Below are positions 15 through 53,309 of a stretch of 64,000 nucleotides of DNA, one piece after another; the first letter of the stretch is position 1; every line of letters starts with the position of its first letter. Source of the DNA: Neisseria zoodegmatis. Its GTDB lineage: Bacteria > Pseudomonadota > Gammaproteobacteria > Burkholderiales > Neisseriaceae. The notes below the pieces were generated by a model that saw only the letters and a program-made list of their open reading frames with translations, ran no database searches and had not been told where the DNA came from. A program made the position numbers and the translations under genes. The DNA is taken from the NCBI RefSeq assembly GCF_900187305.1, contig NZ_LT906434.1, positions 1,984,001 through 2,048,000 of the forward strand, in the 5' to 3' direction.

Positions 15-1238
15 TTATGGTTTCTCAACCGGCTCGGGAATTTGAAACACCTGCCGCAAATAGGCGAGGAAGGTATTGTTGTCGGTCATGGTTTTGCCCG
101 GGCTGTCGGAAAGTTTGGCAACCGATTGGCCGTTGCACTCCACCAGTTTCAACACGATATTCAGCGTCGTGTGGCCTAAATCGTTGGTGAGATTGGTACC
201 GATACCGAAGCTGGTTTTGAAGCGGTCTTTAAAATATTGATGCAATGCCCATGATTTTTCGATATTCAGGCCGTCTGAAAAAGTCAGCATTTTGGTGCGG
301 CTGTCGATTTTGAGCTTTTTGTAGTGGGCATAGGCTTTGTCGCCCCAAACATAAGGATCGCCGCTGTCGTGGCGCAGACCGTCAAACAGTTTGGCGAAAT
401 AAAGGTCGAAATCGCGCAGGAAAGCGTCCATGCCTACTACGTCGGTTAGGGCGATACCGAGGTCGCCGCGGTATTCTTTCACCCATGCTTCCAGCGCGGC
501 TTTTTGGAAATCGCGCAGGCGCACATCCAGAGCTTGGAAAGCTTGCAGAAATTCGTGTGCCATCGTGCCGATGGGCGTGATGCCGAGTTTCTTAGCCAAA
601 TAAACATTGCTGGTACCGCGGACAACATCAGGCGCGGCAGCCAGCAAAGTGCGGACAACGTGCTCTTGCCAAGCCAAGTTATAGCGGCGGCGCGTGCCGA
701 AGTCGGAAATCAGGAACGGCGGATCGTAAGGCTTTTGAGCGGCGGCCAACTCTTTCAAACGCGCCGCTTTGGCTTGCAGACGGCGCTCGCCTTCGGCCAG
801 CACTTCGGGCGTTTCGAGGCGGCGGAAATAAAGTTCGTTAACGATGGCAAGAATGTAAATCTCGAAGAACATCGCCTGTATCATCGGCCCTTCCACTTTA
901 ATGTGCAGGCGGCCTTCGTCGTCGGTGCTCACTTTGACAAAACGGCGTTTGAGCTGGAAAAGCTCCATGTAATCCACAAAATCGCTCTTGATGAAACGCA
1001 GCCCGCGCAGATAATCCAGCTCGTCTTGAGTGAGCTGCAAGCGGCACAAGTCGTCCAACTCACGCTCCAAATCGGCTTGGATTTCGGCGAGCGGGTAAAC
1101 GGTTTGATCGTTGTTGCGGCAACGGAACTCATACACACCGTGCGCTTGGGGAAATTGATGGAGAATCACCTGCAACATGCTGAATTTGTATAAATCAGTG
1201 TCGAGCAGCGATTGGATAATTGGAGCGTTCGGTTTCAT
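15..1238 (-). CDS. pncB: Nicotinate phosphoribosyltransferase
   Basis: Makes nicotinate mononucleotide from nicotinate and PRPP with ATP, the first step of NAD salvage (Preiss-Handler pathway), in the cytosol. The 407-residue length is usual for the proteobacterial enzyme. Recognisable motifs are [11 protein letters not shown] near residues 11-21, FGTRRRYN near 180, the GTMAHE segment near 225 that carries the histidine phosphorylated during the ATP-coupled cycle in homologues, and HDSGDP further on. ATG start at 1238. It is transcribed away from the Y RNA-rsr module and appears independent of it. An in-frame DUS encodes the FSDGLN segment. Confidence 0.96.
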
Positions 1239-1357
1239 GGTAATCGTCTCATCCCTTATCTAATTGGGCCGGATTGTCATTAAACCATGTTTGACAGACT
1301 TTGTGGTTTTTTGTTTCAGACGGCCTCTTTACTATCCCGGCTTATTCATCTATCTAT

Positions 1358-1377
1358 ATTTCTAATTTACTAGAAAT
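1358..1377. promoter_or_regulatory. Inverted repeat, possible activator site for the sigma-54 promoter
   Basis: A perfect 7-bp inverted repeat, ATTTCTA and TAGAAAT separated by 6 bp, lies in AT-rich DNA about 110 bp upstream of the -24 element at 1485. This is the distance at which sigma-54 activators (bacterial enhancer-binding proteins) usually bind. The assignment to an RtcR-like activator is inference from the gene context only. Confidence 0.35.
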
Positions 1378-1483
1378 TAAACTATTTTTCTTTCATGTCG
1401 ATATGATTGCCGATTTTCTCATAAAAATTTTATTTCATTTAAAATCAAAACACTAAAAATTTTTCACAAATAAAAATCAAACA

Positions 1484-1499
1484 TGGCACGGCGTTTGCA
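1484..1499 (+). promoter_or_regulatory. Sigma-54 (-24/-12) promoter
   Basis: TGGCACG, four bases, then TTGCA: an exact match to the sigma-54 consensus TGGCACG-N4-TTGCW with the GG and GC dinucleotides 10 bp apart. It points to a start near 1509-1511, just before the predicted Y RNA. Known rsr-Y RNA-rtcBA operons in enterobacteria use sigma-54 with the activator RtcR. No RtcR gene is in this window. Confidence 0.78.
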
Positions 1500-1509
1500 A
1501 TATACCCAT

Positions 1510-1660
1510 CAAGCACCCGGCACAAATGCCGGAGGAATTACAGCCTAGTGAAGCTCGAGGTCGCGGGTTCGAGTCCCGTCTCTGCCGCCACGATGGCAGA
1601 GTAGCTCAGATGGATAGAGCGCGTAACATTTCTCCACCTCTTGTTGTGAAAGGTGCCCTT
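1510..1660 (+). ncRNA. YrlA-like bacterial Y RNA with permuted tRNA module
   Basis: This stretch has the parts of a tRNA in the wrong order. First comes a T arm (stem 1563-1567/1575-1579, loop TTCGAGT 1568-1574), then acceptor 3' strand CTCTGCC (1580-1586), then GCCACGAT as a closing loop, then acceptor 5' strand GGCAGAG (1595-1601, 7 perfect pairs), then a D arm (GCTC 1604-1607, GAGC 1617-1620). Where the anticodon arm would be, the flanks form a long bulged helix: 1531-1537 with 1629-1635, and TTAC 1538-1541 with GTAA 1623-1626. That is the architecture of YrlA-type Y RNAs, whose long helix binds Rsr and whose other end mimics tRNA. A 5' hairpin (CCGGCA/TGCCGG, 1517-1532) could compete with the helix. 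Ends are approximate. Position directly before rsr supports the call. Confidence 0.85.
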
Positions 1661-1668
1661 TATTCCAA

Positions 1669-1720
1669 AGGCCGTCTGAAAATCAGTTATTGCTACAACC
1701 ACCATCTTTTCAGACGGCCT
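1669..1720 (+). terminator. Inverted DUS pair after the Y RNA
   Basis: Two DUS copies in inverted order form a 14-bp stem (1669-1682 with 1707-1720) with a 24-base loop. No strong T run follows, so it may end or process the Y RNA transcript while allowing read-through into rsr. From here to the rsr start (1721-1967) I see no gene. Confidence 0.45.
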
Positions 1721-1967
1721 CAAGCCTTAAAAACCAAACTAAAGAAAACCGTTTGGCAAGCGTTTGGGCGCGGCAAGCGAATGCCGAAGCACTAATGTGA
1801 AAGTTATTTCTCATCGCCCAACCACCGCTTTTTTTCGGCGGATGCCGGCAGGATTACATTTTTCGGAGACTGCAAAAAGCAGATATCTTGCCACCACCTA
1901 GCCGCCACCTATTTAAGCCATACCTGCCGGTACACAGCGGCAGGCGCAATCAGAAAAGGATAATGAA

Positions 1968-3533
1968 ATGGCCAACATCAGCCTGTTCCAATCCATTAAA
2001 AACCGTTTAACCGCCGCCGACACTTATAACGAAGCGGGCGGCTTGGCTTACAGCTTAACGCCCAAGCAACAGCTTGCCCAACTGGCCGCCACCGGCTGCT
2101 TAAACAACACGTTCTACGCTACGGCCGAAAGCCAACTGGCCAAAGTCAGCGAGCTTGCCGAAAAATTAGACGCAGAATTCATCGCCAAAACCGCCGTATA
2201 TGCGCACCAAAAAGGCTATATGAAAGACATGCCCGCCCTGCTGCTGGCGATTTTGGCGCACAAAGACGTTTCTATGCTGGCACGTGTGTTCGACCGCGTT
2301 GCAGACAACGGCAAAATGCTGCGCAACTTCGTTCAAATCATCCGCAGCGGCACCACCGGTCGGCAATCGTTCGGTTCGCGCCCGAAAAAGCTGATTCAGC
2401 ACTGGCTGCTTACCGCCAACGAAAAACAGCTGCTGAACGCTGCGATTGGCAACAACCCTTTTTTGGCCGACATTGTGAAAATGGTTCACCCCAAGCCCAA
2501 AGAAGCTTGGCGTGCCGCTTGGTTCGCGTGGTTGATCGGCAAACCTTTCAACGAAGCCGATTTGCCGCCGCTTACCCGCGCCTTTGAAATCTACAAACGC
2601 GAACGCAGCGGCCCGCTGCCCGACGTGCCGTTCCAAATGTTGACTTCCCTGAATCTCGACAACGGCGGCTGGGCGCAAATCGCCCGTAACGGCTCATGGC
2701 AGCAAGTGCGTCAAAACCTGAACACTTTCCACCGCCACGGCGTGTTTGAAAAGCAGAAAAACGTGCACCACATCGCCAAGAAACTGCGCAACAAACAGGC
2801 TATCGCCAAAGCACGCGTATTGCCCTACCAGCTGCTGACCGCTTTTCAGACGGCCTCAAAAAACTTGCCGTCTGAAATCAGCAACGCCTTGCAGGACGCA
2901 ATGGAAACCGCTGTCCAAAACGTACCCAAGCTGGCAGGCAAAGTGGTTGTCTGCCCCGACGTATCCGGCTCCATGCACAGCCCCGTTACCGGCTACCGCC
3001 ACTCGGCCACCAGCAAAACCCGTTGCGTGGACGTGGCCGCGCTGGTGTCCGCCGCTTTTCTGCGCACCAACCCGGAAGCGCGCGTTATCCCGTTTGAAAC
3101 CATCGTGGTCGGCGTCGAGCTTAATCCGCGCGACAGCATCATGACCAACGCCGAAAAGCTCGCCCAAATAGGCGGTGGCGGCACATCATGCAGCGCGCCT
3201 TTGGCAAAACTCAACAAAGAGAAAGCGCATGTCGATCTGCTGATTATGGTTTCAGACAACGAAAGCTGGGCCGACCTCGGGCGAACAAACGGCAAAACCG
3301 GCCTGATGAGAGAGTGGGAAATCTTGAAACGCCGCTGCCCCAAAGCCAAAATGGTGTGCATCGACATCCAGCCCTACACCAGCGCGCAAACGCCCAACCG
3401 CAGCGATATCCTGAATATCGGCGGCTTCAGCGACAACGTGTTTGAGCTGATCGGTGATTTTGCCCGCAACGGTTTAGAACAAGATTTGTGGGTGAAACAG
3501 ATTGAGCAGATAGAATTGGCGCCGATTCAGTAA
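1968..3533 (+). CDS. rsr: Ro60/Rsr orthologue, TROVE and vWA domain RNA-binding protein
   Basis: Ring-shaped RNA-binding protein that holds Y RNA and takes part in RNA quality control, rRNA maturation or tethering of PNPase in studied bacteria. Of 521 residues, the N-terminal two thirds is the TROVE domain (TGCLNNTFY near 42-50, helical repeats). The C-terminal vWA-like domain has a MIDAS metal site, DVSGSM from residue 331 with GGGTS and VSDNE segments later. Length matches Deinococcus Rsr. ATG at 1968 follows AAAAGGA at a good distance. Two DUS lie inside the gene (FQTASKNLPSE). The upstream neighbour is the Y RNA; the RNA ligase RtcB, often encoded beside rsr, is absent here. Confidence 0.93.
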   Translation: MANISLFQSIKNRLTAADTYNEAGGLAYSLTPKQQLAQLAATGCLNNTFYATAESQLAKVSELAEKLDAEFIAKTAVYAHQKGYMKDMPALLLAILAHKDVSMLARVFDRVADNGKMLRNFVQIIRSGTTGRQSFGSRPKKLIQHWLLTANEKQLLNAAIGNNPFLADIVKMVHPKPKEAWRAAWFAWLIGKPFNEADLPPLTRAFEIYKRERSGPLPDVPFQMLTSLNLDNGGWAQIARNGSWQQVRQNLNTFHRHGVFEKQKNVHHIAKKLRNKQAIAKARVLPYQLLTAFQTASKNLPSEISNALQDAMETAVQNVPKLAGKVVVCPDVSGSMHSPVTGYRHSATSKTRCVDVAALVSAAFLRTNPEARVIPFETIVVGVELNPRDSIMTNAEKLAQIGGGGTSCSAPLAKLNKEKAHVDLLIMVSDNESWADLGRTNGKTGLMREWEILKRRCPKAKMVCIDIQPYTSAQTPNRSDILNIGGFSDNVFELIGDFARNGLEQDLWVKQIEQIELAPIQ

Positions 3534-3592
3534 ATGATGCGTGCTGACTCTCTACACCGTTCTAAGCTGTTTAATACACAAGCAAAAAACTC

Positions 3593-3624
3593 AGGCCGTC
3601 TGAAAAAAACTTTTCAGACGGCCT
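3593..3624. terminator. Bidirectional DUS hairpin terminator
   Basis: Inverted DUS copies form a 14-bp perfect stem (3593-3606/3611-3624) with a 4-base loop and an A/T run on each side. It ends rsr on the plus strand and overlaps the stop of the convergent gene on the minus strand. Confidence 0.85.
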
Positions 3625-4255
3625 ATTTTTTAAAATCACACCACTTTGCTTTTTTCCCACAACCACAAGGGCAAGCTAGATAGGGGGAGTAATGCGGGTG
3701 CAATTGAAAAACTTGAGGTGCAAGCTGCATAAGTTTGTTTGTTATTTGCTTCATCTGCGCCTCTTCCTTGCCAAATAGTTCTATTTCTCCATATTGGTCT
3801 TGTCTACCATTAGCATTTAAGAGGTTAAATTTTTCATCACACATTCCGAAAAATTCCTCCAAAAGAGGATTTGGGCGATACAGTTGTCGAATATTATTTT
3901 TCTGATTACCTTCATAAATAAGTTTATCATCAGGTACAAATAAAATTCGCCTTTGCACTTCATTTTTAGGTGTAATATTAATATATTGACCATTTTTTTC
4001 CCAAACAGCATGAAATTCTGCTTCTACATATAAAGTAGGCAATTCCCAAATGGCCCATCCTAAAGCCATTTCTCCCCCATGCTTTTCAATATGTTTAAGA
4101 ACATTGTGAAAACATTCATTAGCCTCCGCCCCATTCTCTAGAATAACTTCTACATAAATAGGTTTTTCTTCACTCAAGCTCGTGCAGAATTGATTAATAA
4201 CATCATTTTGAACGGGAGTTACTGGATGTTGGTAACGTAATTGGTAACGTAACAT
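3623..4255 (-). CDS. Hypothetical protein with C-terminal SEC-C zinc motif
   Basis: A 210-residue protein of unknown role. The C-terminus (CPCGCGKKAKWC) is a SEC-C motif, a small zinc-binding module also found at the end of SecA and in many uncharacterised proteins. The rest shows no motif I know; it is rich in aromatic and acidic residues. The gene is clearly more AT-rich than its neighbours, lacks internal DUS and stands alone between terminators, which suggests acquisition by transfer. ATG at 4255 fits the reading frame. Plausible alternative: a conserved accessory protein with an immunity-like or chaperone role; nothing in the sequence proves it. Confidence 0.72.
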   Translation of the reverse strand: MLRYQLRYQHPVTPVQNDVINQFCTSLSEEKPIYVEVILENGAEANECFHNVLKHIEKHGGEMALGWAIWELPTLYVEAEFHAVWEKNGQYINITPKNEVQRRILFVPDDKLIYEGNQKNNIRQLYRPNPLLEEFFGMCDEKFNLLNANGRQDQYGEIELFGKEEAQMKQITNKLMQLAPQVFQLHPHYSPYLACPCGCGKKAKWCDFKK

Positions 4256-4297
4256 GTAGAATTCCTTTTTTGAAAAGTGAGTCCTAATAATAATATA

Positions 4298-4319
4298 AGA
4301 CCCTGATTTTTCAGGGTCT
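4298..4319. terminator. Rho-independent terminator
   Basis: Perfect 9-bp stem AGACCCTGA/TCAGGGTCT with a TTTT loop, flanked by AT-rich tracts. On the minus strand it lies just beyond the stop of the DeoR-type gene and before the SEC-C gene, so it should end the former. Confidence 0.8.
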
Positions 4320-4359
4320 ATTATTAATATTAGAAAATCTTTACTTGATTATGGCGAGC

Positions 4360-5145
4360 CTATTCTTCATCGGCGCCGCGTTCCGCCACATACCATTTCA
4401 CGCCCTGCGCTTCGAGCTGTTTGCACATGGTTTCATCGGGCGTTTGGTCGGTAAACACCGCGTCAAACTCGGTAATATCGCCCATCCGCACCAAAGCATT
4501 GCGGCCGAATTTGCTGTGATCGACACCCAAATAACACATACGCGCATTGGCCATCATCGCCTGCATCACGCTGACTTCTTTGTAGTCGAAATCCAGCAGC
4601 GAGCCGTCGGCATCCACGCCCGACGCGCTCAACACGGCATAATCGGTTTTGAACTGATTAATAAAATCCACCGTCGCCACGCCGGTTACGCCGCCGTCAA
4701 TCGGGCGCACCACGCCGGAGGTAATAATCACGGTGTAATCGCTGCGCCCCGATACAATCGACGCCACATGAATATTATTGGTAATGATGCACAGGCCTTT
4801 GCGCTTTTTCACCAACGCCATTGCCACGGCCTCAATCGTGGTACCGATACTCAAAAACAGCGACGCGTTGTCGGGAATATGCTCGGCAATCAAATCGGCA
4901 ATGTGGATTTTCTCGTTTTGCAGCTTGGCTTTATGAGTGTTCAAATCCTCGTTTTCCAAGCTGTCGCCCAAAGTCGCACCGCCGTGATAACGCCGCAGAA
5001 TGTTCTCTTCGCACAGCTGGTTGATGTCGCGGCGGATGGTTTGCGGCGTCACGTCCAGCTCCCGAGCCAGCTGCTCGATAGGCATGAAGTTGTATTCGCG
5101 CACTAAGGCAATGATTTTTTCGTGACGTTGTATGCGGGGAGGCAT
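4360..5145 (-). CDS. DeoR/GlpR-family transcriptional repressor
   Basis: Sugar-metabolism type repressor of 261 residues. The N-terminal winged helix-turn-helix is classic for DeoR proteins (residues 1-60, with LARELDVTPQTIRRD as recognition region and RRYHGGA after it). The C-terminal DeoRC sensor domain has FLSIGTT near 95-101, ITNNIHVA, and a phosphosugar-binding arrangement (SASGVD, GVDHSKFG). The effector is probably a phosphorylated sugar or glycerol-3-phosphate, but the neighbours (a LysO-type exporter and a SEC-C protein) do not reveal the regulon. Named glpR in some Neisseria annotations; I leave the symbol open. Confidence 0.88.
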   Translation of the reverse strand: MPPRIQRHEKIIALVREYNFMPIEQLARELDVTPQTIRRDINQLCEENILRRYHGGATLGDSLENEDLNTHKAKLQNEKIHIADLIAEHIPDNASLFLSIGTTIEAVAMALVKKRKGLCIITNNIHVASIVSGRSDYTVIITSGVVRPIDGGVTGVATVDFINQFKTDYAVLSASGVDADGSLLDFDYKEVSVMQAMMANARMCYLGVDHSKFGRNALVRMGDITEFDAVFTDQTPDETMCKQLEAQGVKWYVAERGADEE

Positions 5146-5240
5146 GGCTTATGTGACTTTATCAATTGTTAAAATAATTTTACATCATCAACTTATGCGG
5201 CGAATTGTGCCAAATTCGGCGTGGTGGCGCAAGCGCGCGC

Positions 5241-6146
5241 TTAAAAGTGCATATTGGAGAAAACCACCATCAGAAACGGAGCCAGCACGTTCACGATAAA
5301 ACCGAAGCTGATCGCCAGCGGCACAACCTGCAAACCGCCCGAGCTTTGAATCACCGGCAGCGTAAAATCCATACTCGTCGCCCCGCCGGAGCCGACCGCC
5401 GCGCTCGGGTGCTTACGCATCAGCACCGGAATAAACACCAAAGCAAAAAATTCGCGCGACAAATCGTTCAACAAAACAATACTGCCCCACACCGGCCCGT
5501 AAGCTTCGGTCATCACAATGCCTGAGAGCGAATACCAACCGAAGCCCGAAGCCAAGGCCAAACCTTTGCTCCACGACACTTCGGGCATCAGTGCCGCAAA
5601 CACAATGCCGCCGATGAGTGACGACACGGTAAACAGCACGCCGGTCTGCACGCCCCTGCGGTTTACCAACACCTGCCGCAAAGTAATGCCGCTGCTGCGC
5701 AACTGCACACCGACCAGCAACACCATCAGCATCAAACAATAATTGCCCGTGCTTTCCGGCGGGAGCCAGTGGCCTGCCATCGCTTTACCCAGCACAAAAC
5801 CCGCCGCCACGCAGCCCAACTGCCGCGTACTGCCCGCCATACTCACCCTGCTTTTCTTGCCGCTGCCTTGCGTTTGGCGGGGATAACGGCGGTCGAACCA
5901 CATCAAAACCAGCAGGTTCATACCCATCACACACCCGAAAAGCAAGGCCGCCGCACCGGCAATCGTATCCAACTGCGCAACCAAATTATCCACGCGCGAC
6001 AGCGACACGCCGATCAACAGCAGAATAATATAAACCAGCCACGCCAAAGCCTTATCCACCAGCCGTACATAATGTTTGGGCACGCTGATAAAAAAGCCGA
6101 GAAACAGCGGTATCAACACGGAAATTAACGTAAGCAGACTATCCAT
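5241..6146 (-). CDS. lysO: LysO-family (DUF340) amino acid exporter
   Basis: Polytopic inner-membrane protein of 301 residues with about eight to nine hydrophobic segments, resembling E. coli LysO (YbjE), which exports lysine and thialysine. Characteristic features are the short N-terminal half (LIPLFLGFFI, LLLIGVSLS), a basic loop near residues 85-105, and the conserved C-terminal half with GFGWYSLSGI, LNDLSREF and GATSMDFTLP. The LysR/ArgP-type control known in E. coli cannot be seen here. Single gene; DUS at 6163-6173 lies upstream. Confidence 0.85.
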   Translation of the reverse strand: MDSLLTLISVLIPLFLGFFISVPKHYVRLVDKALAWLVYIILLLIGVSLSRVDNLVAQLDTIAGAAALLFGCVMGMNLLVLMWFDRRYPRQTQGSGKKSRVSMAGSTRQLGCVAAGFVLGKAMAGHWLPPESTGNYCLMLMVLLVGVQLRSSGITLRQVLVNRRGVQTGVLFTVSSLIGGIVFAALMPEVSWSKGLALASGFGWYSLSGIVMTEAYGPVWGSIVLLNDLSREFFALVFIPVLMRKHPSAAVGSGGATSMDFTLPVIQSSGGLQVVPLAISFGFIVNVLAPFLMVVFSNMHF

Positions 6147-7626: not shown

Positions 7627-8433
7627 CTATATCAAACGCCACAGCATTCTGCCGGCAATCACCAGCAGCAAAATACCGAAAGCCAGCTTGAGTTTGGCAG
7701 GCGGCAACTTGTGCGCGGCTTTCACGCCCAACGGCGCGCACACTACTGTTGCCACGCTCAACACCGCCACCGCGGGCAGATACCAAAAGCCGAACGACCC
7801 TTCGGGCAAGCCGCTGATATTCCAGCCGGAATACAGATAACCGAGCGCACCCGCCACCGCAATCGGCCAAGCCAAACCGGCGGAAGTGCCCACCGCTTTA
7901 TGCACGGGCACGTTGCAATACATCATAAACGGCACCGATAAAGAACCGCCGCCGATACCGACCCAGCTCGAAACGACGCCGAACAAAGTGCCCACCGCAC
8001 TCAAACCCGCGCCTCCCGGCAGGCTGCGCGACGGTTTGGGCTTGGCATCCGCCAGCGTTTTCAAAGCAATCAGCACGGTAAACACAATAAAGAAAATCTG
8101 CAAAGCGCCGTTGGAAATGTGTTTAGCAATAAACGAACCGAGCAGCACGCCGAAAATCATGCCCGGCGCCATACGCTTCACCACCTGCCAATCCACCGCA
8201 CCTTTGCGGTTTTGCGCCATCATGCTGGAGAACGTAGTAAACACCATAATCGCAAACGACGTGCCCACCGCCAAATGCTGCGCGTGGGCGATGTTTTCCA
8301 TGCCCTGCATTTGCAGCACCCACAACACCACCGGCACGATAATCATCCCGCCGCCGATACCGAGCAGCCCCGCGATGAAACCGGCGAAACTGCCCACCGC
8401 CAGCATGATAATAATTAATTGAATATCCAGCAT
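7627..8433 (-). CDS. TauE/SafE family permease
   Basis: Inner-membrane protein of 268 residues with about eight hydrophobic segments. The N-terminal GSFAGFIAGLLGIGGGMIIVP and the second-half repeat GVVSSWVGIGGGSLSVPFM are the duplicated glycine-rich motif of the TauE/SafE (DUF81) family, members of which export sulfite, sulfonates or organic anions. The substrate cannot be read from the sequence. It stands alone between nth and pssA. Confidence 0.9.
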   Translation of the reverse strand: MLDIQLIIIMLAVGSFAGFIAGLLGIGGGMIIVPVVLWVLQMQGMENIAHAQHLAVGTSFAIMVFTTFSSMMAQNRKGAVDWQVVKRMAPGMIFGVLLGSFIAKHISNGALQIFFIVFTVLIALKTLADAKPKPSRSLPGGAGLSAVGTLFGVVSSWVGIGGGSLSVPFMMYCNVPVHKAVGTSAGLAWPIAVAGALGYLYSGWNISGLPEGSFGFWYLPAVAVLSVATVVCAPLGVKAAHKLPPAKLKLAFGILLLVIAGRMLWRLI

Positions 8434-8493
8434 TTTTCTTCTTTATAGCTTCTTTGTAGATGATATAGACAACAATGGTTTTTGTTTTTAAGC

Positions 8494-8552
8494 CAAGCTC
8501 GTTTTAGCGAAGCTCGCAAGTTCGTTTTAGCGAAACTCGCCAAGCTCGTTTT
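8494..8552. repeat. Tandem AGCGAAGCTC module joined to a DUS
   Basis: About 2.5 copies of a 23-24 bp unit (CAAGCTCGTTTTAGCGAAGC and variants) at 8494-8516, 8517-8540 and 8541-8552, running straight into a DUS at 8552. The same module with a DUS occurs once at 19318-19354 and inverted at 22480-22524. Confidence 0.7.
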
Positions 8553-9307
8553 CAGACGGCCTGACGGCGTTTTTTCCACCACCGCCAGCCAAACATCACA
8601 TAGCCCGACAAACTGTATCCTAAGAAAAACAGAAACAGCACCAAAGAAGGCTCCGATGCTGCCACCGCCAAAATCAGCATGAAAATAATCATGGCGAAAA
8701 ACGGCACTTTGCGGCGCACGTTGATTTCCTTAAAGCTCCAAAACGGAATCTGCACCACCATAGACAAGCCCGCAAACAGCGTAATAATCAGGCACAACCA
8801 CTGCACATAAGGCAGGCGCTCGTAGCTGTGGTTTACCCAAATCATGCCCACAATCAAAGCTGCCGCCGTGGGGCTGGGAATGCCGATAAACCAGCGTTTG
8901 TCCACGCGCCCGATTAATGTGTTGAACAAAGCCAAACGCAACGCCGCACACGCGCAATAAATAAACGCAATCGAATAGCCGATTTTGCCGAACTGCCACA
9001 GCTGCCATTTGTAGGCAATCAAAGCGGGCGCCACGCCGAAGCTGACCATGTCGGCCAAGCTGTCGAGCTGCTCGCCGAACGCGCTTTGGCTATTTGTCCA
9101 ACGTGCCACCCGCCCGTCCATACCGTCGAGCAGCATGGCAATGAATACCGCAATCGCCGCCGTTTCATAATGCCCGTGCATGGCTTGGGTGATGGCGAAA
9201 AACGCAGCAAACAAGGCGGCGATGGTAAAGGAATTGGGCAGCAGATAAATACTGTGCTTACGCAAAGACGCGCGGTGCCGCTGGGTTGGATTTTGCTGTA
9301 TATCCAT
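8552..9307 (-). CDS. pssA: CDP-diacylglycerol-serine O-phosphatidyltransferase
   Basis: Makes phosphatidylserine from CDP-diacylglycerol and serine at the inner membrane, the precursor of phosphatidylethanolamine. The 251-residue protein has the CDP-alcohol phosphotransferase signature DG-X2-AR-X8-G-X3-D-X3-D near residues 61-83 (DGMDGRVARW...GEQLDSLAD) and several membrane segments. It is of the integral-membrane type II class. The last codons and stop (Ala-Val-stop) are provided by a DUS. Confidence 0.94.
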   Translation of the reverse strand: MDIQQNPTQRHRASLRKHSIYLLPNSFTIAALFAAFFAITQAMHGHYETAAIAVFIAMLLDGMDGRVARWTNSQSAFGEQLDSLADMVSFGVAPALIAYKWQLWQFGKIGYSIAFIYCACAALRLALFNTLIGRVDKRWFIGIPSPTAAALIVGMIWVNHSYERLPYVQWLCLIITLFAGLSMVVQIPFWSFKEINVRRKVPFFAMIIFMLILAVAASEPSLVLFLFFLGYSLSGYVMFGWRWWKKRRQAV

Positions 9308-51293: not shown

Positions 51294-53309
51294 TTAAAGT
51301 TTATTTTCATTTTGCGGCTGATCGGCTTCCGGTTGTTCTTGCGAAGGAGCTTGTTGCGCTTCAACTTCCGCAGAAGCAGGAACTTCTTTTACCGAAGATT
51401 CTTCCTGAGCATCCAAAGCATTATCCACCACAATCAACTCTTCTTCTTTGCGCACATTATGGCTGTAATCTTTAGGCGGACTAGGTTGCTTGCCTTCCAT
51501 GATTTCAAGCACTTGGTCGCGGTCGATGGTTTCCCATTCCATCAATGCTTTGCACATGGTTTCCATCTTATCGCGGTTTTCGTCCAAGATTTTATAAGCC
51601 ACGGCATATTGCTCATCCAAAATACGGCGCACTTCGGCATCTACTTCCTGCTGGGTTTTTTCGGAAATGTGCTGCGAACGGGTAATAGAACGGCCTAAGA
51701 ATACTTCGCCTTCGTTCTCGGCATAAACCATCGCACCCATTTTATCGCTCATACCGAAACGCGTTACCATCTCACGGGCAATTTGGGTTGCACGTTCAAA
51801 GTCGTTGGAAGCGCCGGTGGAAATGCGGCCTACAAAAATGTCTTCCGCAATCCGACCACCGTACAAAATGGAAATTTGGCTCAACATTTGGTCTTTATAC
51901 ATGCTGATACGGTCACGTTCAGGAAGCTGCCAAGTCAAACCCAAAGCACGACCGCGCGGCATGATGGTTACTTTGTGAACCGGATCGGTAAAGTCCAAAC
52001 TTTCAGCCACAATAGCATGACCAGCTTCATGATAGGCAGTCGCACGTTTTTCATCTTCGTGCATCACCATCGAGCGGCGCTCGGGCCCCATATAGATTTT
52101 GTCTTTGGCATCTTCAAAGTCGCTTTGATCGACCTTGATTTTATTGCGACGACCGGCAAACAAAGCTGCTTCATTAACCAAGTTGGCCAAATCGGCACCT
52201 GAGAAGCCCGGCGTACCGCGCGCCAAAGAAACCAAATCTACCGATTCGTCCAAAGGCACTTTTTTCGCATGTACTTTCAAAATCTGCTCGCGACCACGGA
52301 TATCGGGCAGGGGCACTACCACTTGGCGGTCGAAACGTCCCGGGCGTTGCAATGCCGGATCAAGCACATCAGGGCGGTTGGTAGCCGCAATCACAATTAC
52401 AGTTTGATTGCTTTCGAAACCATCCATTTCAACCAGCAATTGGTTCAAGGTTTGTTCACGCTCGTCGTTACCGCCGCCCAAACCTGCTCCACGTTGGCGG
52501 CCTACGGCATCAATTTCATCGATAAAGATGATACAAGGGGCATTTTTCTTGGCCTGCTCAAACATATCGCGGACACGGCTGGCACCTACGCCGACAAACA
52601 TTTCTACGAAGTCGGAACCTGAAATGCTGAAAAACGGCACTTGTGCTTCACCGGCAATGGCTTTGGCCAACAAGGTTTTACCGGTACCGGGACTGCCTGC
52701 CAACAAGATACCGCGCGGCACACGACCACCCAAACTTTGATAGCGGTTGGGTGCTCTCAAATAGTCCACAATCTCTTGAACTTCTTCTTTGGCTTCGTCG
52801 CAACCCGCTACATCGGCGAAAGTGACTTTATTGGTATCTTTATCCAGCAATTTGGCACGGCTTTTGCCGAATGAAAAAGCCCCGCCTTTGCCACCGCCGC
52901 CGGATTGCATCCGCATGAAATAAAACCATGCACCGATCAGCAGCATCACCGGCAACAAGCTGAAAAACAGGCTGGTCAGCATACTCGGTTTTTCTTCGGG
53001 AATGACTTTTACACGCACTTGCTTGTCCAGCAGCGTTTTAACCAGGTTGTCATCCAAAGGTGCATTGGTAAAGAAACGGGATTTGTCGGTACGTTCACCT
53101 TTAATCAAATAACCGCTCAAGCCCGAGCCTTCAATATTGACATTGGCTACTTCGCCTTTATTGACTTGCTCGATAAATTGCGAGTATTCGATTTGCTGTT
53201 TGCTTTCCTGTTTGTCGTTAAGGGCATTGAAAGCGGCCATTAAGGCAACACCTAACACCAGCCAAACTAAAACATTCTTAAAAATATTCCCCACTGAAAC
53301 AGGCTCCAT
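51294..53309 (-). CDS. ftsH: ATP-dependent zinc metalloprotease FtsH
   Basis: Membrane-bound AAA+ protease for quality control and regulated turnover (for example LpxC, RpoH in E. coli). Of 671 residues, two N-terminal membrane helices (12-28, 112-132) flank a periplasmic domain. The ATPase has Walker A GSPGTGKT (205-212), Walker [12 protein letters not shown] and the SRH arginines; the zinc site is HEAGH near 424. C-terminus is Glu/Gln-rich. Downstream of rlmE in the same direction, the conserved rlmE-ftsH order. SPFH proteins in this window (QmcA- and YqiK-like) are plausible partners. Confidence 0.97.

Follow-up and report, generated by a model that had tools for sequence, protein, structure and literature searches.

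Rsr, a bacterial relative of the human Ro60 autoantigen, is known from the rsr-yrlBA-rtcBA operon of Salmonella and Burkholderiales, which has a divergent rtcR, and from the Deinococcus Rsr-Y RNA-PNPase complex (RYPER). Parts of a Salmonella study report that RtcR binds tRNA 5′ halves with a cyclic phosphate and that RtcA is needed in some mutants or backgrounds and not in others, and they state that the study did not address what Rsr and Y RNAs do alone (PMC7790460). Here, we describe a related module in a 64,000-nt stretch of Neisseria zoodegmatis DNA (the window; G000:C1:1984001-2048000), taken from the complete 2,552,522-base genome. RtcR, a sigma-54 promoter, Rsr, and tRNA-mimicking Y RNAs are common to this module and the rsr-yrlBA-rtcBA operon. 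Unlike that operon, the one in the window has neither rtcB nor rtcA, and its rtcR is in trans; the Y RNAs of its clade (2 to 7 units) precede rsr, whereas Burkholderiales operons place them after it; and a short YrlB without a tRNA-like domain adjoins rsr. With RYPER, it shares an Rsr homologue (2NVO) and a Y RNA alongside, whereas its predicted regulation differs. From comparisons of sequence, we think it likely that this is an RNA damage-responsive Neisseriaceae operon through which RtcR and sigma-54 produce an Rsr-Y RNA particle in place of enzymes for RNA repair. The switch would probably sense broken RNA and induce the Ro60 relative along with two small RNAs, of which one mimics tRNA.

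Rsr, YrlA, RtcR, and RtcB2-PrfH all belong to known families, and their combination here—RtcR control without RtcBA, Y-first arrays, a short YrlB, and an encoded CCA—appears to be a variant of rsr-yrlBA-rtcBA. Among the papers listed in searches of the open literature on Rsr, Y RNA, YrlA, and RtcR, no title or start of an abstract dealt with this module in Neisseria. Key bacterial Y RNA papers (Chen 2014; Sim and Wolin 2018; Sim 2020; Wang 2018) may already include these species, more than one Y RNA, or tests with RNase P, and we therefore make no claim of a first report.

Organization of the Rsr and Y RNA module

A gap of 729 bases separates the nicotinate phosphoribosyltransferase gene (15-1238, minus strand) from rsr (1968-3533, plus strand), and the sequence gives the module the order enhancer motif, sigma-54 site, YrlA, short YrlB, rsr. 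The promoter TGGCACGGCGTTTGC (1484-1498, plus strand) matches the sigma-54 consensus exactly, as an initial annotation made from the sequence had stated. Base composition predicts 1.33 exact sites for the whole genome and 1e-4 for the 485 nt that precede rsr; the pattern TGGCACR-N4-TTGC had nine sites, four of them with G, and the pattern read backwards had one. A transcript start is predicted at about 1509-1511, placed by what we take to be the usual sigma-54 geometry. An AT-rich, possibly IHF-like element was noted by eye in the upstream strings (1428-1448); it matches what we take to be the IHF consensus only in part, and a like stretch was seen by eye at a similar distance (−56/−57) in G065, G066, and G082. 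The only other exact sigma-54 site in the window, at 52853, falls within an open reading frame (ORF) and was dropped as a second promoter, being intragenic and probably due to chance. Elsewhere in the genome, an exact site (L017:1515, minus strand; G000:C1:2417133-2417147) precedes an ORF whose start resembles, by eye, a trimeric autotransporter adhesin, a possible further target.

Upstream of the promoter lies a predicted RtcR upstream activating sequence that the initial annotation had overlooked, composed of two overlapping CTA/TAG-type dyads (1341-1366 and 1361-1386) that start at −143 and −123 from the sigma-54 site. The motif, a 26-base palindrome, was learned from 69 upstream regions of related rsr loci (74 loci outside Neisseriaceae and Cardiobacterium, 5 of them without a usable site), with Neisseriaceae held out; for 68 of these 69 promoters, an RtcR match lies within the same locus, and 12 of the training sites are at −122 to −136 relative to the sigma-54 site. 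The two dyads are the top motif sites of the whole window (17.3 and 15.8 bits). Among 17 held-out loci with Y RNA arrays (14 Neisseriaceae and 3 Cardiobacterium), the best site of the locus fell at −150 to −110 in 14, a number reached by 0 of 300 column-permuted motifs (mean, 2.63; maximum, 13). These results point to an RtcR-type enhancer at this promoter, and since rtcR is not adjacent here, the predicted site is not merely part of an rtcR promoter.

The first of the two Y RNAs is of the YrlA type (1517-1653, plus strand), in agreement with the permuted tRNA-like RNA of the initial annotation. Its outer stem (1521-1525/1644-1648), 5′ AUGCC loop (1526-1530), inner stem (1531-1538/1628-1635), and 3′ loop (1636-1643) carry a circularly permuted tRNA-like domain at 1563-1620 (plus strand), read as T arm (1563-1579), acceptor strand (1580-1586), loop (1587-1594), acceptor strand (1595-1601), and D arm (1603-1620). 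Rfam YrlA (RF02553), with which it shares the Y stem with AUGC loop and the permuted T arm, acceptor, and D arm, matched 1519-1653 (64.9 bits; E = 1.8e-14 in 761 bases searched), and a clade model built from 16 sequences, the window copy among them, gave 128.5 bits. Across the 16 A-type sequences, 11 of 22 predicted pairs showed compensatory change, so that covariation appears to conserve both the Rsr-binding stem and the tRNA-like domain, with its 7-bp acceptor and its T and D arms.

The single Y RNA of the initial annotation stands, but a second one had been missed. This YrlB-type RNA (1833-1910, plus strand) has an outer stem (1837-1841/1902-1906), a 5′ AUGCC loop, and an inner stem (1847-1854/1885-1892) without a tRNA-like domain. 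Clade model R2 (12 sequences, window copy included) scored it at 74.2 bits, and the A-type model R1, which excludes it, at 36.3 bits (E = 3.6e-7); 8 of 13 pairs showed compensatory change in the 12 B-type sequences, and its fold z-score was −1.92, with 12 of 200 shuffles equally good. A core of outer and inner stems, with an AUGC loop and a 3′ loop that ends in CU-G or similar, is common to both Y RNAs. In the window, only the A type adds a circularly permuted tRNA-like part with its T arm, acceptor, and D arm; a T arm and a short hairpin occur in some B units of relatives. Neither Rfam at gathering thresholds nor ARAGORN had a match within the window, and Rfam did not report the second Y RNA. 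Because Rfam found 3 YrlA in five relative loci where the clade models found 29 units, Rfam alone would have concealed the arrays. Between the two Y RNAs, a spurious MAT2A_C match in the Rfam search marks an inverted repeat (1671-1718), presumably a DNA uptake sequence, which a terminator scan of the region did not call as an intrinsic terminator; a terminator-like inverted repeat with a T run follows rsr (3593-3624, plus strand), one of six such sites in the region against 4.6 expected by shuffling.

The Rsr protein (521 amino acids [aa]) matched vWA_Ro60 (1.1e-18) and TROVE (8.1e-9), and residues 12 to 500 aligned with Deinococcus Rsr 2NVO (E = 2.1e-21). The AlphaFold model (predicted local distance difference test [pLDDT], 83.5; predicted template modeling [pTM] score, 0.82) is consistent with a Ro60 fold, a helical-repeat ring plus vWA domain: all 13 PDB matches with E ≤ 0.001 are Ro60, Rsr, or TROVE chains (query TM score, 0.63 to 0.74), the best three being 9nfa, 9nep, and 1yvp (0.71 to 0.74). 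The metal ion-dependent adhesion site (MIDAS; DxSxS...T...D) is complete and its residues D331, S333, S335, T406, and D430 are invariant in 12 Rsr sequences, which agrees with the intact rsr first annotated. Since the score for NCBIfam NF041674 is far below the equivalog cutoff (89.8 versus 900 bits), this Rsr belongs to the same superfamily but to another subfamily; PADLOC had no match for it. In a midpoint-rooted tree of 38 of 89 proteins, Neisseriaceae and Cardiobacterium Rsr formed one clade (100/100) among Burkholderiales-type Rsr. A single origin for the Y-first form without RtcBA, together with transfer between the Neisseriaceae and Cardiobacterium lineages, would agree with this placement, the tree fixing neither root nor direction.

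Regulators, ligases, and rival explanations

The regulators predicted by the promoter are encoded elsewhere in the same genome. The rpoN gene is intact (450 aa, with AID, CBD, and DBD all present), which supports the suggestion of the initial annotation that this species keeps a working sigma-54. Likewise intact is rtcR (546 aa; NF038308, 808.6 bits versus a cutoff of 650), whose product is 58% identical to Escherichia coli RtcR and has the GAFTGA loop; rtcR and rtcBA are, as annotated, not adjacent to rsr. The description of the module as lacking RtcB holds in part: neither canonical RtcB nor RtcA was found in the genome, but the sole RtcB match, of RtcB2 type, forms an intact rtcB2-prfH pair (L005:5954-7753). 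At the locus itself, the module is reduced to Rsr and its Y RNAs. No sigma-54 site with 0 to 1 mismatches and no strong enhancer match was found in 15 kb around rtcB2, and RtcR control of rtcB2-prfH in this genome was dropped for want of a site. About 3 kb from rtcR is a gene for a small protein with a ricin-type beta-trefoil lectin domain (L006:2790-3317).

Among 83 Neisseriaceae genomes, rsr occurred in 14 and rtcR in 24, including all 14 with rsr and 10 of the 69 others; rtcR is divergent from and 0.9 to 1.7 kb away from rsr in 8 of the 14. The RpoN DNA-binding domain was found in 71 of 83 genomes, again including all rsr genomes (open frames of 455 to 487 aa). A best YrlA-model match of 128 to 149 bits was seen in all 14 rsr genomes and in no others. 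For each of the remaining 69, the top match either was absent or had an E value no lower than 2.2e-8; the matches listed for them did not exceed 43.8 bits, and many of these weak matches span the tRNA-like part of the model alone. RtcA was detected in none of the 83 genomes, and canonical RtcB in none of the 14 with rsr, full-type canonical matches being confined to one genus (g10; 11 genomes), none with rsr. RtcR is thus kept in all 14 rsr genomes without detected RtcA or canonical RtcB, which would separate the signal from the repair enzymes and makes these species suited to testing RtcR without RtcA or RtcB and the roles of Rsr and Y RNA on their own; the arrays, with and without the tRNA-like domain, offer natural variants for such tests.

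In the mechanism we favor, RtcR would sense RNA damage as tRNA 5′ halves with a cyclic phosphate and activate the sigma-54 promoter. Rsr would then bind the AUGC-containing stems of both Y RNAs, the short YrlB serving as a ligand of Rsr only, and the particle might either work through tethering to PNPase, as happens in Deinococcus, or be a decoy for enzymes that act on tRNA. As for the absent RtcA and canonical RtcB, we prefer that RtcR works without them over RtcB2 taking their role or the system being silent.

Several observations weigh against an RtcR-driven, functional Rsr-Y RNA operon. Part of a published account reports that E. coli RtcR activity requires both RtcA and RtcB (PMC9650030), and for that reason RtcR might be silent here. 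The rtcR gene of this genome is unlinked to rsr (about 580 kb away), and the genome encodes three more sigma-54 activators; among the 24 rtcR genomes, 10 have no rsr. The enhancer motif misses G040, G065, and G082 (3 of 17) and is weak in L029 (9.1 bits). When the window is taken by itself, 21 of 300 permuted motifs share the first rank and 2 of 300 reach the observed score, and the upstream regions are AT-rich. The window YrlA, at 64.9 bits, is below the RF02553 gathering score of 69, a score that units of related arrays reach (up to 99.2). Shuffled sequences fold as well as it does (z = −0.42), and since folding of the single sequence is thus uninformative, covariation is the basis for its structure; its lowest-energy fold pairs GGCA with UGCC at the 5′ end, replacing the outer Rsr-binding stem. 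The window also has the smallest of the 17 arrays, with 2 Y units between the sigma-54-like site and rsr, against 4 to 7 in the other 13 Neisseriaceae and 4 to 5 in Cardiobacterium.

The small array, the distant rtcR, the subthreshold YrlA, and its competing 5′ hairpin would all be expected of a decaying remnant, an operon acquired as an array, now being lost, and not usefully expressed. We regard this as quite improbable given that rsr is full length with its conserved residues, that the AUGC core and stems persist in both Y RNAs, and that the sigma-54 site is exact and the enhancer motif retained even though rtcR is not adjacent. A sigma-54-dependent promoter under some other activator, for example of the Npa type, would draw on the three other activators in the genome and on parts of a report that RpoN is active in commensal Neisseria and is used with Npa at pilE (PMC6528607). 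The enhancer motif, however, comes from promoters nearly always accompanied by RtcR in the same locus, rsr always occurs with rtcR across the 83 genomes, and the two are close and divergent in 8 of 14; we hold control by another activator to be very unlikely.

A somewhat stronger contender, though still unlikely in our judgment, is that the module still serves repair, with RtcB2-PrfH standing in for RtcB and Rsr and Y RNA presenting or protecting broken RNA. RtcB2-like matches (two-segment matches of ~180 to 199 bits) occurred in 34 of 83 genomes, plus a partial one in G015, comprising 14 of 14 rsr genomes and 20 of 69 others (Fisher P = 5e-7, partial match excluded); because the genomes are related, this P value overstates the link, and P values for co-occurrence, which ignore relatedness, were not used as probabilities. 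TIGR03073 (RtcB2 family) was passed in all 11 rsr genomes tested (G000 and ten others), and prfH adjoins rtcB2 in 10 of these (G000 and nine others), G021 being outside the prfH test; in G003, G065, and G066, RtcB2 was called by the two-segment match. Against a repair role, the 15 kb around rtcB2 in this genome offer neither a sigma-54 site with 0 to 1 mismatches nor a strong enhancer match, the ligase occurs without rsr in 20 other genomes, and the published RtcB2-PrfH acts on colicin E3-cleaved 16S rRNA (PMC9223846). Production of an Rsr-Y RNA particle in place of repair enzymes is the reading we retain as likely.

Two genomes illustrate rtcR where rsr is absent (G045 and G002); near it there was no Y RNA and no strong enhancer. 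In G002 (L189; G002:C3:1304500-1314000, locus strand), the neighbors of rtcR (4529-6145, plus strand) are a gene for a T4 RNA ligase 1-type protein whose N terminus has a P-loop domain (1968-3482, minus strand; PF09511, 1e-8) and an ORF that is metallophosphoesterase-like by eye and has no Pfam match (1300-1953, minus strand), so that 1300-6145 is perhaps another RNA repair cassette under RtcR. A sigma-54-like site with one mismatch is at 4366 (minus strand). In G045 (L188; G045:C1:591000-600500), rtcR (3258-4880) occurs without rsr, Y RNA, or any RtcB match, and an ORF about 3.5 kb from it (8403-9056, plus strand) resembles, by eye, the phosphoesterase of L189.

Y RNA arrays and the encoded CCA

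The wider comparison covered 80 rsr loci from genome contigs (80 kept of 84 relatives), some of them cut by contig ends. The fetched stretch had an RtcB match in 71 and an RtcR match in 71, two of the RtcB matches being just 24 to 27% identical; the six Neisseria and Cardiobacterium loci belong to the nine without RtcB. A scan with Rfam also covered seven further loci (five Burkholderiales-type, one Rhodanobacter, and one Lysobacteraceae) and matched YrlA in six, each time after rsr. In the 17 array loci, the final unit before rsr was always of the B type. A sigma-54-like site lies 30 to 33 nt before the first modelled Y unit in six of them (G000, G003, G021, G065, G066, and G082) and at 26 to 155 nt, less perfect and with mismatches, in the other 11; the scan required GG and GC, which are thus present by construction. 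In some of these 11, a diverged Y-like stretch that the models did not report was seen by eye between the site and the first unit.

In the window YrlA, the acceptor loop GCCACGAT (1587-1594) starts with a discriminator G and CCA (1587-1590). The 3′ acceptor strand was followed directly by discriminator-CCA in 14 of 19 Neisseriaceae, 3 of 8 Cardiobacterium, and 0 of 53 other A-type units that could be parsed, units of related genomes not being independent; this encoded CCA sets many Neisseriaceae and some Cardiobacterium units apart from RF02553. The 14 Neisseriaceae loops read GCCA, 2 to 9 variable bases, and AT, and then the 5′ acceptor strand. Discriminator-CCA and a U before the 5′ strand are RNase P determinants. 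For algal permuted tRNAs, part of a published account describes removal of the intervening sequence at the corresponding position, for which RNase P and tRNase Z are probably responsible, and such permuted tRNA genes and two-piece tmRNA likewise have the 3′ half before the 5′ half, a short linker, an encoded CCA, and an acceptor stem (PMC3978253); the Y RNA differs in having an Rsr-binding stem in place of the anticodon arm. The encoded discriminator-CCA suggests that the Y RNA may be processed into two pieces. Alternatively, and counting against a two-piece form, the loop may be merely inherited from a tandem tRNA origin. In four loci (L029:3617-3738, L035:5873-6007, L089:6002-6150, and L187:3246-3383), Rfam tRNA matches run from the D arm of one Y unit into the T arm of the following unit, which would fit arrays that arose as though tandem tRNA genes had received an insert at the anticodon.

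A more far-reaching proposal, which we offer as speculative and on balance rather unlikely, is that Neisseriaceae and Cardiobacterium have rewired the RtcR damage regulon from RNA repair to a battery of Rsr-bound tRNA mimics. The main YrlA would be a true circularly permuted tRNA that RNase P cuts between the encoded discriminator-CCA and the 5′ acceptor strand, leaving a two-piece Y RNA whose CCA 3′ end could be used by, or could trap, tRNA enzymes, perhaps a synthetase.

Carriers of the module include Neisseria elongata and Cardiobacterium, which are found in the human mouth and airway. One publication mentions reports that commensal bacteria containing Rsr particles might trigger autoimmunity in lupus (PMC8394870). 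In N. elongata-type arrays, a small ORF (127 aa, no Pfam match) stands among the Y units (L026:3037-3420, with similar ones in L027 and L104), and a single Cardiobacterium hominis genome has two rsr loci with Y RNA arrays (L028 and L029).

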